Assembly (NCBI RefSeq): GCF_034555935.1 | Contig: NZ_JAYDCJ010000003.1 | Coordinates: 3,035,008 to 3,099,007, forward strand | DNA length: 64,000 bases | DNA from: Marinobacter qingdaonensis | GTDB taxonomy: Bacteria; Pseudomonadota; Gammaproteobacteria; Pseudomonadales; Oleiphilaceae | Reading direction: 5' to 3' | Shown: piece after piece, positions 11,107 through 64,000 of the stretch | Position numbering within the stretch: position 1 is the stretch's first letter | Layout of the letters: every line of letters starts with the position of its first letter | Translations under genes and position numbers: made by a program | Notes under the pieces: model-generated | Database searches by the model: none | The model's input: only the letters and a program-made list of their open reading frames with translations | Told to the model about the DNA's origin: nothing

Positions 11107-11706
11107 TTATTCGGACAGGGAGATGCCCAGGTTGCTGACGCCCTCGTTGGCGGCGTCGGCCTGGAGCCGCTCGACAAACTGCTCGGTTGGAGTGCGCTGG
11201 CGTTTGAGCGCCAGCACCAGGTCGCGCTGAAAGGCCTTGTCTTCCTTCATCAGCGGATGCTGGTCAAGCAGCCGCACCAGTTCGTCTTCGTCCAGTCCCT
11301 CACCCTCGGACACTTCGACGAAGCTCATGACGGTGCCGGTGGCCATCTGCGAGGCCTCGGTGGCCCGGTGCTTGGCCGGATTCAGCCGGTTCAGCAGCGC
11401 CTGCTCCAGCAGCTGACAGAAATCAAAGGCCGGGTACACGCCGTAGGCGTCGTAGGCCTCGACATCCGGTGACAGGGTTTCCAGCTTGGCCAGCAGTTGC
11501 GGGATGGCCGATTCGGCCACATCCTTCTGCAGCATGTCCCAGCCCAGATCCAGCATCTGCCGCATCTTGCCGCCGGTTTTCAGGCCCACGGCGTCGGCAA
11601 ACAGCGCGTAGTTCGGGAAGGAACGCTCGGCCAGCGCCAGCAGGAAGGCGCATTCGCGCCACCCCTGGAGTTGGGCAATGGCTTTCAGGAACTGGTTGGC
11701 GTTCAT
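11107..11706 (-). CDS. DUF416 (YjaG) family protein
   Basis: A 199-residue protein starting [42 protein letters not shown], which matches the YjaG/DUF416 family in start and size. The family is helical and of unknown function. The ATG at 11706 overlaps the dcd stop by four bases (ATGA); the frame is open further upstream inside dcd, but that is the shadow of dcd. It is co-directional with dcd and probably in one transcript. Confidence 0.85.
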
Positions 11707-12269
11707 GTCCGGGGCAGGGTCACGCCGGTCTGGCCCAGGTACTTGCCGCCGCGGTCCTTGTAGCTGGTCTCGCAGACTTCGTCCGATTCGAAGAACAGCA
11801 TCTGCGCCACGCCTTCGTTGGCGTAGATTTTCGCCGGCAGGTTGGTGGTGTTGGAGAACTCCAGGGTCACCTGGCCTTCCCACTCCGGCTCGAGCGGGGT
11901 GACGTTGACGATGATGCCGCACCGGGCGTAGGTGGACTTGCCGAGGCAGATGGTCAGCACGCTGCGCGGAATGCGGAAGTACTCGACGGTGCGCGCCAGG
12001 GCAAAGCTGTTCGGCGGGATGATGCAGACGTCACCGGTGTAGTTGACGAAGCTGTTCTCATCGAAGTTCTTCGGATCCACGGTGGCGGAGTGGACGTTGG
12101 TGAAGATTTTGAACTCGTTGCTGCAGCGTACGTCGTAGCCGTAGCTGGAGGTGCCGTAGGAGATCACACGGCCCTTTTCGGATTCACGGACCTGACCGCT
12201 TTCGAACGGTTCGATCATGCCCTGTTCTTCGGACATCCGGCGAATCCACTTGTCGGATTTGATGCTCAT
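11703..12269 (-). CDS. dcd: dCTP deaminase
   Basis: Dcd deaminates dCTP to dUTP, the first step of the main route to dTMP in gammaproteobacteria. The 188-residue protein starts [23 protein letters not shown] and shows [15 protein letters not shown], the active-site segment [35 protein letters not shown], and [20 protein letters not shown]. Both length and start are typical. DUF416 follows in overlap. Confidence 0.96.
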
Positions 12270-12365: not shown

Positions 12366-12473
12366 GCGGTTGCAGGCACCACCGGCCAAAAACCGCTACA
12401 AGCACATCCATGTGCGCTTGTCTCCGGCCATCCCTGGCCTCCAAAATTTTTGGCCGGTGGTGCCTGCAACCGC
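12366..12473 (+). repeat. Structured intergenic element, copy 1
   Basis: Perfect 27-base inverted arms (12366-12392 and 12447-12473) enclose a 54-base core. The core has a GCACA/TGTGC hairpin (12402-12415) with a flanking ACAA/TTGT helix and two bulged bases, and a GGCCA/TGGCC hairpin (12426-12439) with a TCCC loop. It lies between the mrp stop (31 bases away) and the dcd start (96 bases away). The core matches the reverse complement of the copy at 29868-29977 at 42 of 54 positions by eye, while the arms of the two copies are unrelated in sequence. Confidence 0.85.
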
Positions 12474-12504: not shown

Positions 12505-13605
12505 TCAGTGCTCTGTCACCGAGACGCTGGAGATGGAACCAGTCAGGTTGCGCTCCCGGGTGGACAGCTCGGCCCCAACCCGACGGGCGATATCCCGGTA
12601 TCGGCGGGCCACTTCGGAGTCTGGCTCGGCCACCACCGAAGGCTGGCCGCCGTCGGTTTGCTCGCGGATGGTCATGTGCAGCGGCAGCTGGCCCAGCAGG
12701 GTGGTGTCGTATTCGTCGGCGATGCGTTCGCCGCCGCCCTGGCCGAACAGCGGTTCTTCATGGCCGCAGTTGCTGCAGATGTGCACGCTCATGTTCTCGA
12801 CCACGCCCAGCACCGGGATGTCGACTTTACGGAACATTTCGATGCCTTTCTTGCCGTCCAGCAACGCGATGTCCTGGGGCGTGGTGACGATGACGGCGCC
12901 GGTCACCGGGACTTTCTGGGCCAGGGTGAGCTGGATGTCGCCGGTGCCCGGGGGCATGTCGACCACCAAGTAGTCGAGTTCGTTCCACAGGGTCTGCTGC
13001 AGCAACTGCATGACGGCGCCGCTGACCATCGGGCCGCGCCAGACCATGGGGGTTTTGTCGGTGACCACGAAGGCCATGGAGTTGGCCTGCAGGCCGTGGG
13101 CTTCCATGGGTACGAAGTATTTGTTTTCGCGGGTGTCCGGGCGCTTGCCTTCGGGCACGCCCAGCATCATGCCAATGCTCGGGCCGTAGATGTCGGCGTC
13201 GAGGATGCCGACCCGGGCGCCTTCGGCGTGCAGGGCCAGAGCCAGGTTGACGGCGGTGGTGGATTTGCCGACGCCGCCCTTGCCGGAAGCCACAGCGATG
13301 ATGTTTTTCACGCCCGCTACCGATGGCAGGTCTTTCTGGACCTTGTAGGAGTGGATCTTCTGACCAACGTGGACCTCGGCGCTCTCGACGCCATCGACGT
13401 TCTCCAGGGCCACGGTCACCAGCTGTTTCAGGGCTCCGGCAATGCCCTTGGACGGGTACGGCAGCTCGACCATCAGGGTCACTTTGCCGTCATCGTCGGT
13501 GTTGAGGGCCTTCACGGCGTCCAGTTCGTAAAGGTCTTTCTGGAGGTACGGATCGCGGTACTCGCGAATCGCCGTTTGCAGGGCCTGCTCAGAAATCTGT
13601 GTCAT
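12505..13605 (-). CDS. apbC: Iron-sulfur cluster carrier protein Mrp/ApbC
   Basis: A P-loop NTPase of the Mrp/NBP35 family that binds and delivers Fe-S clusters. The 366-residue protein starts MTQISEQALQTAIREYRDPY with an N-terminal DUF59/MIP18-like domain (about residues 1-90). The ATPase domain carries GKGGVGKSTTAVNLALAL, ILDADIYGPSIG and VDMPPGTGDIQLTL, and the C-terminal CSNCG pair is typical of cluster binding. The start at 13605 is preceded by GGAGAA; an upstream extension to 13644 is unlikely. It diverges from metG. Confidence 0.92.
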   Translation of the reverse strand: MTQISEQALQTAIREYRDPYLQKDLYELDAVKALNTDDDGKVTLMVELPYPSKGIAGALKQLVTVALENVDGVESAEVHVGQKIHSYKVQKDLPSVAGVKNIIAVASGKGGVGKSTTAVNLALALHAEGARVGILDADIYGPSIGMMLGVPEGKRPDTRENKYFVPMEAHGLQANSMAFVVTDKTPMVWRGPMVSGAVMQLLQQTLWNELDYLVVDMPPGTGDIQLTLAQKVPVTGAVIVTTPQDIALLDGKKGIEMFRKVDIPVLGVVENMSVHICSNCGHEEPLFGQGGGERIADEYDTTLLGQLPLHMTIREQTDGGQPSVVAEPDSEVARRYRDIARRVGAELSTRERNLTGSISSVSVTEH

Positions 13606-13661
13606 CGGGTTCTCCGGAATAAGCTCATGCTTGATTTTAAGCACGGAAACAGGGGATTCGG

Positions 13662-29143: not shown

Positions 29144-29845
29144 TCAGAAACGGCCGAGGATAAAACTCGCCAATTCGAGATCGGCGGGCACCGTCACCTT
29201 GATGTTGTCCGGCCGGCCCTCCACCAGGACTGGCATGTTACCGGAAAACTCCATGGCTGAGGATTCATCCGTGACCGGCTGCCCGGCGGCAACAGCCTTC
29301 TGCAGGGCGTCAGCCAGGGCACCGTACCGGAACATCTGCGGGGTAAACGCCCGCCAGAGCCCGCCCCGGTCCACCGTCTCCCGGACCTCAGGCTCACTCG
29401 CCCCGTCAGCCCGCTTCAAGGTATCCGCCACCGGCGACGCCAGCAGTCCTCCGATCGGATGCTCGATGAGGGTATCGACCAGACGCGCCAGGTCATCCGG
29501 GTGGACACAAGGCCGGGCCGCATCGTGCACCAGAACCCAGTCGTGGGCACTCGCCTGCCCTGCCAAGGCGGCCAACGCCGCCAGCACCGAATCGGCCCGT
29601 TCGTCGCCGCCGGTGCAGGTCTGCACCCGCCCTTCCCGACTGGCCTCGGAATCCGGCCACCAGCGGTCGTCCGGGCTCAGTGGCACCATACATCCGGCCA
29701 ACGGAAGCGATTCCAGAAGGCGTGACAGGGTGATGTCCAGAATGAACCGGGAGTGAATACGGAGGTATTGCTTGGGAAGCTCGGCTTGCATCCGGCGGCC
29801 GATGCCGGCGGCAGGCACAATAAGCCAGAGTCTGGGTGCAGTCAT
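29144..29845 (-). CDS. ispD: 2-C-methyl-D-erythritol 4-phosphate cytidylyltransferase
   Basis: IspD adds CMP to methylerythritol 4-phosphate in the MEP pathway. From the ATG at 29845 it has 233 residues; the nucleotide-binding N terminus is [21 protein letters not shown], followed by [16 protein letters not shown] and a C-terminal [18 protein letters not shown]. The open frame extends a further 21 codons into the structured repeat, but no family residues lie there. It starts 22 bases after that element. Confidence 0.95.
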
Positions 29846-29867: not shown

Positions 29868-29977
29868 AGAGCGGCGAGGGTGCCCTGCCCGGGAATGTCT
29901 GTGGCCACGGATGGCCACAGTCAAGCGCACAGGGACGTGCCCGTAGCGGTTCCCGGGCAGGGCGCCCTTGCCGCTCT
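29868..29977 (-). repeat. Structured intergenic element, copy 2
   Basis: Inverted arms of 28 bases (29868-29895 and 29950-29977) pair at 26 positions; the two exceptions are G-T opposites when read on the + strand. They enclose a 54-base core, exactly as long as in the copy at 12366-12473 and homologous to it on the opposite strand. The element fills most of the ftsB-ispD gap, 18 bases after the ftsB stop and 22 before the ispD start. Confidence 0.85.
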
Positions 29978-29995: not shown

Positions 29996-30268
29996 TCAGT
30001 TCTCTACCACAAGGAAGAAGGTCTCGTCCTCACGAATCAACCCAAGGTTCATCCGGGCCCGCTCCTCCACGGCGCTCTGCTCATTGCGCAGATTGCGCAC
30101 CTCGGCATAGAGCCGCTCATTGCGGGTCGCCAGCTCGGCGTTTTCCTCACGCTGTTCGGCAATGGACTGTTCCAGGGCCCAGACCTGCGCGAAGCTGCCC
30201 TCCCCGACCCACAGGCGCACCTGCAGCAGGAGTATCAGCACGATCATCGTGGTCCAAAGCAACTTCAT
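29996..30268 (-). CDS. ftsB: Cell division protein FtsB
   Basis: A 90-residue bitopic divisome protein. A short cytoplasmic start and one membrane helix (LLWTTMIVLILLLQVRLWVG) are followed by a coiled coil (LEQSIAEQREENAELATRNERL) and the conserved RNEQSAVEERARMNLGLIREDETFFLVVE segment. FtsB forms a complex with FtsL and FtsQ in septal peptidoglycan synthesis. Location between eno and ispD matches the gammaproteobacterial norm. It has its own predicted promoter after the eno terminator. Confidence 0.94.
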   Translation of the reverse strand: MKLLWTTMIVLILLLQVRLWVGEGSFAQVWALEQSIAEQREENAELATRNERLYAEVRNLRNEQSAVEERARMNLGLIREDETFFLVVEN

Positions 30269-63521: not shown

Positions 63522-63640
63522 AGTCTGACGATGACCTACTCTCACATGGGCAAGTGCCACACTACCATCGGCGCAGGCCTGTTTCACTTCTGAGTTCGGG
63601 ATGGGATCAGGTGGTTCCAAGCCGCTATGGTCGTCAGACA
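63522..63640 (-). rRNA. rrf: 5S ribosomal RNA
   Basis: The minus strand reads TGTCTGACGACCATAGCGGC at the 5' end and closes with TCGTCAGACT, forming the terminal helix. Internal landmarks include the loop with CCCATCCCGAACTCAG and GTAGTGTGGC. About 119 bases. Exact ends are by comparison with known 5S genes. Confidence 0.95.
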
Positions 63641-63717
63641 AAACGGTTGATCACTGGGGGACGAGATGGAAATGGTGATATTGATTTCGCGTTATCCGCA
63701 ATTGTCTTGGGTGTTAT

Positions 63718-64000
<283 letters not shown>

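Follow-up and report, generated by a model that had tools for sequence, protein, structure and literature searches.

A dispersed two-hairpin element of Marinobacter with freely varying but paired arms, a possible TwoAYGGAY relative and candidate CsrA decoy

Introduction

What kind of repeat keeps its middle and lets its ends vary, as long as these ends still pair with each other? The question is raised by two intergenic elements in a 64,000-nt window of the Marinobacter qingdaonensis genome (3.99 Mb, five contigs). The window, i.e., the whole stretch of DNA analysed here, comprises bases 3035008-3099007 of contig C3 (NZ_JAYDCJ010000003.1). A sequence-only reading had proposed selection on, or copying through, a folded single strand and had argued against a simple mRNA element. 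This interpretation is partly supported by our analysis: selection on a folded strand and the case against an mRNA element are both upheld, no observation of ours favours copying through such a strand, and CsrA-type loops and a TwoAYGGAY-like architecture had been overlooked.

Results

Two copies of the element in one window

Copy 1 lies between mrp (apbC) and dcd and copy 2 between ftsB and ispD, as assigned with NCBIfam models. The best named match of the dcd gene is to Marinobacter similis (99%), followed by other Marinobacter. The strand on which the loops read GGA is referred to as the GGA strand.

11703..12269, minus strand: dCTP deaminase gene dcd (TIGR02274, 166.1 bits, cut-off 92.8)
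12366..12392: variable left arm of copy 1, 27 nt, 100% complementary to 12447-12473
12393..12446, GGA strand minus: copy 1, conserved 54-nt core (alignment, pair counts, wobble asymmetry)
12406..12411, minus strand: H1 loop of copy 1, GGA-strand sequence ATGGAT (sequence, fold)
12430..12435, minus strand: H2 loop of copy 1, GGA-strand sequence AGGGAT (sequence, fold)
12447..12473: variable right arm of copy 1, 27 nt (complementarity to left arm)
12505..13644, minus strand: iron-sulfur carrier ApbC gene mrp (NF008669, 475.9 bits, cut-off 348)
29144..29845, minus strand: ispD (TIGR00453, 216.3 bits, cut-off 181.3)
29868..29895: left arm of copy 2, 28 nt (26 of 28 pairs with the right arm Watson-Crick)
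29896..29949, GGA strand plus: copy 2, conserved 54-nt core (sequence, alignment)
29907..29912, plus strand: copy 2, loop of H2, ACGGAT (sequence, fold)
29931..29936, plus strand: copy 2, H1 loop position, AGGGAC (homology to alignment columns 44-49)
29950..29977: copy 2, right arm, 28 nt (pairing with left arm)
29996..30268, minus strand: FtsB-like gene ftsB (NF002058, 97.1 bits, just below the cut-off of 101)
63523..64000: 5S rRNA plus terminal 23S rRNA sequence, at the end of the contig

The perfect 27-base inverted arms described at copy 1 are indeed fully complementary and stand 54 nt apart, and the second copy likewise has a 54-nt core between arms that pair (26/28) yet are unrelated to those of copy 1. 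Counted by eye on the alignment, 42 of 54 core positions are identical between the copies, in agreement with the earlier count. Both cores hold two hairpins and are closed by a helix of 27-28 pairs; the hairpins had been recognised before, and the CsrA-type ANGGA loops on the opposite strand had been missed. At copy 2, a single-sequence fold pairs the H1 region differently. Folded as RNA, the two strands gave z-scores of -11.3 and -11.9 for copy 1 and of -10.7 and -9.6 for copy 2, with none of 200 shuffles as good in either case; as DNA, the plus strand of copy 1 reached -9.9. Relative to the neighbouring genes, the GGA strand runs in sense direction at copy 1 (mrp, dcd) and in antisense direction at copy 2 (ftsB, ispD).

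Many copies with free arm sequence and kept pairing

A pattern search with up to three mismatches gave 18 matches in the genome and none with a reversed control, and in 17 of the 18 matches paired arms enclose a core of 52-54 nt. The exception (C3:2964568-2964594) is a half element with H1, no H2 and arms kept only in part. Fifteen of the 18 matches were aligned without gaps over 114 columns, three being left out, and a covariance model built from these 15 copies, on the strand opposite the GGA strand, matches the genome 62 times. Sixty matches have normal length; the other two, both on contig C5, carry an insert and were excluded from arm and loop counts (n = 60). Sixty of the 62 copies lie in gene gaps and two overlap a gene called by our home-made gene caller.

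In the C5 copies (C5:52539-52691 and C5:53244-53398) the insert is structured and sits in the H1 loop, as it does at L100 and L104 and probably at L257, L279 and L282. Different loci and different species have it at the same place, with a length in the tens of bases, roughly 40 for the C5 copies (judged by length) and more for L100 and L104. On the GGA strand, the flanks of the copies in this genome show a weak consensus, namely a stretch rich in C and poor in G some 24 nt ahead of the 5' arm and ACTCC.AA beyond the 3' arm.

Within a 58-genome search, every one of the 36 other genomes of the genus matches the model, with 3 to at least 64 matches each, and the congeners G035 and G067 reach 97 and 96. 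Across a class-wide sample of 369 genomes, at least 62 match at E <= 1e-4, in at least 55 of 272 genera. BLAST searches of plasmid and phage collections with the 54-nt core gave no match.

The idea of variable arms had depended on there being more than the two copies first seen and on these not sharing one arm sequence, and on both counts it stands: the covariance search finds 62 copies, and their arms differ. In the 15 aligned copies, 93.8% of arm positions are paired, with two-sided changes at 27 of the 28 arm pairs, and sliding the partner by one base lowers the paired cells from 91.7% to 38.7-44.0%. Among 91 pairs of copies whose cores are more than 0.9 identical, the arms are on average 0.46 identical, which is also the value (0.46) that column composition predicts, in line with the earlier claim that the ends vary and pairing alone is kept. 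The stem would need only to pair, so that its sequence may drift through two-sided changes.

The element is kept at orthologous gaps

The sequence-only reading had raised the prospect that orthologous mrp-dcd gaps lack the element; most do not. Among 61 distinct Marinobacter loci (58 genomes plus three named loci), 39 hold a standard element upstream of dcd, in the same orientation. The remaining gaps carry a long insert at H1 (three loci, one of them judged from its tail), a core-less hairpin (one), a remnant (three) or nothing (15, in part of which the upstream gene was confirmed as mrp). Upstream of ispD, the 30 loci covered (out of 60 genomes with ispD) comprise 16 standard elements, two with an insert (judged from the tail), one core-less hairpin, ten without anything and one too short to read. 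Left out of these counts are L177 and L271, each a second copy from one genome, as well as L181 and L263, which were wrongly fitted inside mrp. In the two core-less cases, L182 at the dcd gap and L291 at the ispD gap, a shorter, well-paired arm hairpin is left.

Comparison of G035 with G067 adds further sites: both flanks were available for 10 of 20 elements tried, and all ten gaps are occupied in the same orientation. Four have near-identical arms; in the other six, arms and spacers are unrelated while the flanking sequence is still 83-98% identical. Exchange of whole-spacer alleles between diverged relatives would explain these divergent spacers. Throughout the genus, orthologous gaps thus retain the element.

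Random orientation relative to genes

According to the home-made gene calls, 19 of the 62 copies have their GGA strand in sense to both neighbours and 18 in antisense to both; in 15 copies it is sense only to the gene upstream and in 10 only to the one downstream. The copies are oriented at random with respect to genes, which bears on the possibility that the element is an ordinary mRNA element of its neighbours, such as a terminator, a 3' end stabiliser or a UTR regulator. The location of 60 of 62 copies in gene gaps, 15 of them between convergent genes (by a crude gene call), and the sense orientation of copy 1 to mrp-dcd would fit this. Copies between tandem genes are, however, equally divided (19 sense, 18 antisense), all 16 standard orthologs of copy 2 run antisense to ftsB-ispD, and a T-run is absent, so that an mRNA element is very unlikely; the earlier argument against a simple one holds on the tandem-gene counts. 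A UTR element was rejected on orientation.

No T-run was found after the GGA strand in the copies of this genome, nor does a sigma-70-like score upstream of this strand differ from its mirror control (7.97 versus 8.06, p = 0.51, n = 60). An sRNA with its own promoter was rejected, as there is no sigma-70 signal 5' of the GGA strand.

Copies that lie within 300 bp of each other in M. qingdaonensis, G035 and G067, counted among the matches listed (78 of 97 copies in G035, 72 of 96 in G067), turn their GGA 5' ends towards each other in 21 of 22 cases, at distances of 6-134 bp (p = 4e-12 against an expectation of 1/4).

Wobble pairs point to the GGA strand as the folded strand

A transition within a helix leaves a G-U pair on one strand and an A-C mismatch on the other. 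On the GGA strand, the arms of the 60 copies (24 pairs each) show 58 G-U wobbles versus one A-C. The asymmetry is found whichever way the neighbouring genes point: counted over 26 pairs, the G-U:A-C ratio is 23:0 in copies sense to both neighbours, 15:1 in those antisense to both, and 14:0 and 10:0 in the two remaining classes. On the same strand, the 28 best matches of other congeners gave 6:0 and the 29 best matches of G035 and G067 9:0, and fetched regions gave 6:0 for G035 (19 copies) and 8:0 for G067 (26 copies), the G035 and G067 sets overlapping one another. Orthologs at the two gaps yielded 45:6 over 1485 pairs. In 17 loci of other genera the asymmetry is absent (4:3). L067, at a contig end, and the short L365 and L368 were excluded from the 24-pair counts. 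Extending the arms to 45 nt gave 91 to 23, with unpaired flank taken in; our conclusions rest on the counts of 24-27 pairs.

Because its arm wobbles are G-U and almost never A-C, the GGA strand is marked as the strand selected to fold. As the covariance model was made on the other strand, ascertainment should work against this result. The proposed selection on a folded single strand with a three-way junction can thereby be extended to a named strand. Fold z-scores of copy 1 show no preference for the GGA strand. A symmetry at the level of DNA, suggested on first reading by a single G-U among 420 arm cells on the core strand, was weakened by the finding that the mismatches are G-U on the other strand.

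An element of DNA would be a folded single strand or cruciform in which template switching turns one-sided into two-sided mutations and so keeps the arms symmetrical. Such an element would be blind to gene orientation, as observed, and core-less yet paired hairpins exist (L182, L291). Close species may also show many two-sided and no one-sided changes (for example, 10 versus 0 between L083 and L085), a comparison in which two-sided counts are inflated by paired indels because it was ungapped; species pairs of this kind differ over the whole spacer and not merely in the arms, and allele exchange would account for this as well. DNA, too, tolerates G-T better than A-C. Template switching, however, gives no reason for G-U on one strand only, whatever the orientation, and leaves the ANGGA loops unexplained. 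We regard a DNA element as quite unlikely and propose that the folded GGA strand is RNA and not single-stranded DNA.

Copies inside miniature transposons

In the distant gammaproteobacterium G329, seven fetched copies are near-identical including their arms and lie inside an element with 17-base inverted ends, flanked by 9-base target duplications that are exact in six cases and have one mismatch in the seventh (by eye). The ends of this element occur 165 and 155 times in G329; with its CAGCAATTCCCA ends it forms a large miniature-transposon family of about 160 sites, and the seven copies that were read carry the structure. Three copies in G148 share inverted ends that differ from those of G329. 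Miniature transposons of at least two kinds therefore carry the structure. No inverted ends were detected in the 66-nt flanks of the 60 copies in the M. qingdaonensis genome.

These observations also fit selfish remnants of miniature transposons, in which the fold belongs to mobile DNA, has no role for the cell and is conserved through age and chance. Besides the G329 copies, the random orientation to genes and the several species without the element at a given gap speak for such remnants. Against them stand the same gap, the same orientation and the paired arms in 39/61 and 16/30 Marinobacter loci, as well as the flanks without inverted ends, and neutral copies should lose both pairing and the one-sided wobble pattern. 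Remnants without a cellular role thus seem unlikely.

Conserved ANGGA loops and similarity to TwoAYGGAY

On the GGA strand, 56 of 60 cores contain at least two ANGGA motifs, compared with 3.3% of shuffled cores, and two are present in all standard elements at the dcd gap (39/39) and the ispD gap (16/16). Counting strictly only ANGGAY loops closed by a hairpin, 48 of 60 copies have two and 12 have one. The base N is T in 64, G in 39, A in 8 and C in 6 motifs, so that 47 of 117 have G or A there. Two papers, in the passages available, give ANGGA as the CsrA motif. The genome has one csrA gene. CsrA presence does not track the element, with 36 of 40 bearers (drawn from 61) and 35 of 40 non-bearers (the lowest-numbered of 307) having a match; G276 is a bearer without a CsrA match in a genome that is 98% complete. 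An RsmZ-like RNA in the M. qingdaonensis genome reached 21.7 bits where the cut-off is 44, and at that E-value matches also come from 8 of the 14 control genomes.

Searched with Rfam at its own thresholds, the window gave rRNA only and no TwoAYGGAY (RF01731) match for copies 1 and 2, which lack a match to this family even at E <= 1. At E <= 1, two of the eight loci compared, L036 (with two copies) and L038, match the full RF01731 model on the GGA strand. Genome-wide, there are 22 TwoAYGGAY matches at E <= 1 on the GGA strand, the best with 41.7 bits, all below the Rfam gathering score of 43 bits. This cut-off is exceeded in 5 of 19 genomes, three of the same genus (G002, G005, G009) and two of the same order (G039, G041); none of 14 control genomes matches. 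Long hairpins of this kind also give weak matches to two animal-type miRNA families. The long closing stem of low sequence conservation, a trait of TwoAYGGAY, is present in the M. qingdaonensis copies.

TwoAYGGAY has been described from human gut, gammaproteobacteria and Clostridiales, and the passages available from Weinberg et al. 2010 (PMC2864571) consider it probably an RNA and probably not cis-regulatory, without assigning a function. Rfam lists RF01731 under the type Cis-reg. Based on motif matches, CsrA binding was proposed for TwoAYGGAY, whose external stem is poorly conserved, according to the part available of PMC4333381.

Discussion

The architecture of the element, its copy number, its conserved loops, the pairing of its arms at orthologous sites and its strand-specific tolerance of G-U are all apparent at the level of sequence. 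We propose that the element is a dispersed structured RNA read from the GGA strand, a divergent relative of TwoAYGGAY and a candidate CsrA decoy, a proposal that we give about an even chance. The GGA strand would most likely be transcribed from a neighbouring gene or as antisense and then fold. Two ANGGA hairpins on a stem of about 27 bp would make a fitting site for a single CsrA/RsmA dimer, so that CsrA may bind the folded strand, and copies on readthrough or antisense transcripts could act as small CsrA decoys. The stem, fixed near 27 pairs, would hold the hairpins together and may be a substrate for a double-strand-specific RNase. The element probably spread as cargo of miniature transposons, since its orientation is random and the structure lies inside such an element in one relative; the Marinobacter copies would then be old residents.

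More speculatively, and with considerable doubt on our part, Marinobacter might possess a decentralised CsrA decoy system consisting of tens to about 100 two-site RNA modules. These would have been spread by MITEs and retained at their sites through much of the history of the genus, their stems under selection for pairing only, each module combining a private stem with a shared CsrA-binding head. Should this hold, an RNA repeat spread by transposons would have become part of a global regulatory circuit or be preying on it. With its tens of copies per genome, its orthologous sites, its natural losses and a clear strand signature, the genus allows a direct test of the TwoAYGGAY-CsrA proposal. 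The element also provides a clean natural data set for the paired evolution of a nearly sequence-free helix.

In the available parts of the literature on Marinobacter repeats, CsrA-binding repeats, TwoAYGGAY and MITE-borne RNAs, we recognised no description of the element; those of the Alcanivorax CsrR1/R2 and Alteromonas Aln1 RNAs, as far as available, do not present it. Several known systems share some of its traits. REP/BIME palindromes, which are short and tagged and go together with a RAYT (Y1) transposase, are likewise intergenic, and close copies of our element stand as inverted pairs; in contrast to REPs, which are 20-40 bp long and carry a GTAG or CGTC tag at one end in the passages available from PMC3733652, the element is a three-way junction of 108-114 nt with free arms. 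MITEs are recognised by shared inverted ends and target duplications, both of which are found in G329, whereas in Marinobacter the arms are unrelated and no inverted ends were found in the 66-nt flanks of the 60 M. qingdaonensis copies: MITE copies share kept ends, Marinobacter copies the core and not the arms. Like the element, the CsrA/RsmA-sequestering sRNAs (CsrB, RsmY and RsmZ; Aln1 and CsrR1/R2) expose ANGGA in hairpins, according to the available parts of their descriptions. These sRNAs, however, are encoded by one or few genes, contain many sites and have their own promoters or a parent UTR, whereas the element forms many dispersed two-site units without a promoter signal. The reverse complement of the Bacillaceae-1 RNA also has two CsrA-type hairpins; in the part available of PMC4333381, from whose description we draw this likeness, the strand of the original RNA is considered doubtful. 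TwoAYGGAY, finally, shares with the element two tandem GGA hairpins on a long, sequence-poor closing stem. The element differs from it in that the base before GGA extends beyond Y and that scores in the M. qingdaonensis genome stay under the cut-off, and the accounts of TwoAYGGAY, in the parts available, mention neither tens of dispersed copies per genome nor arms kept by pairing alone.
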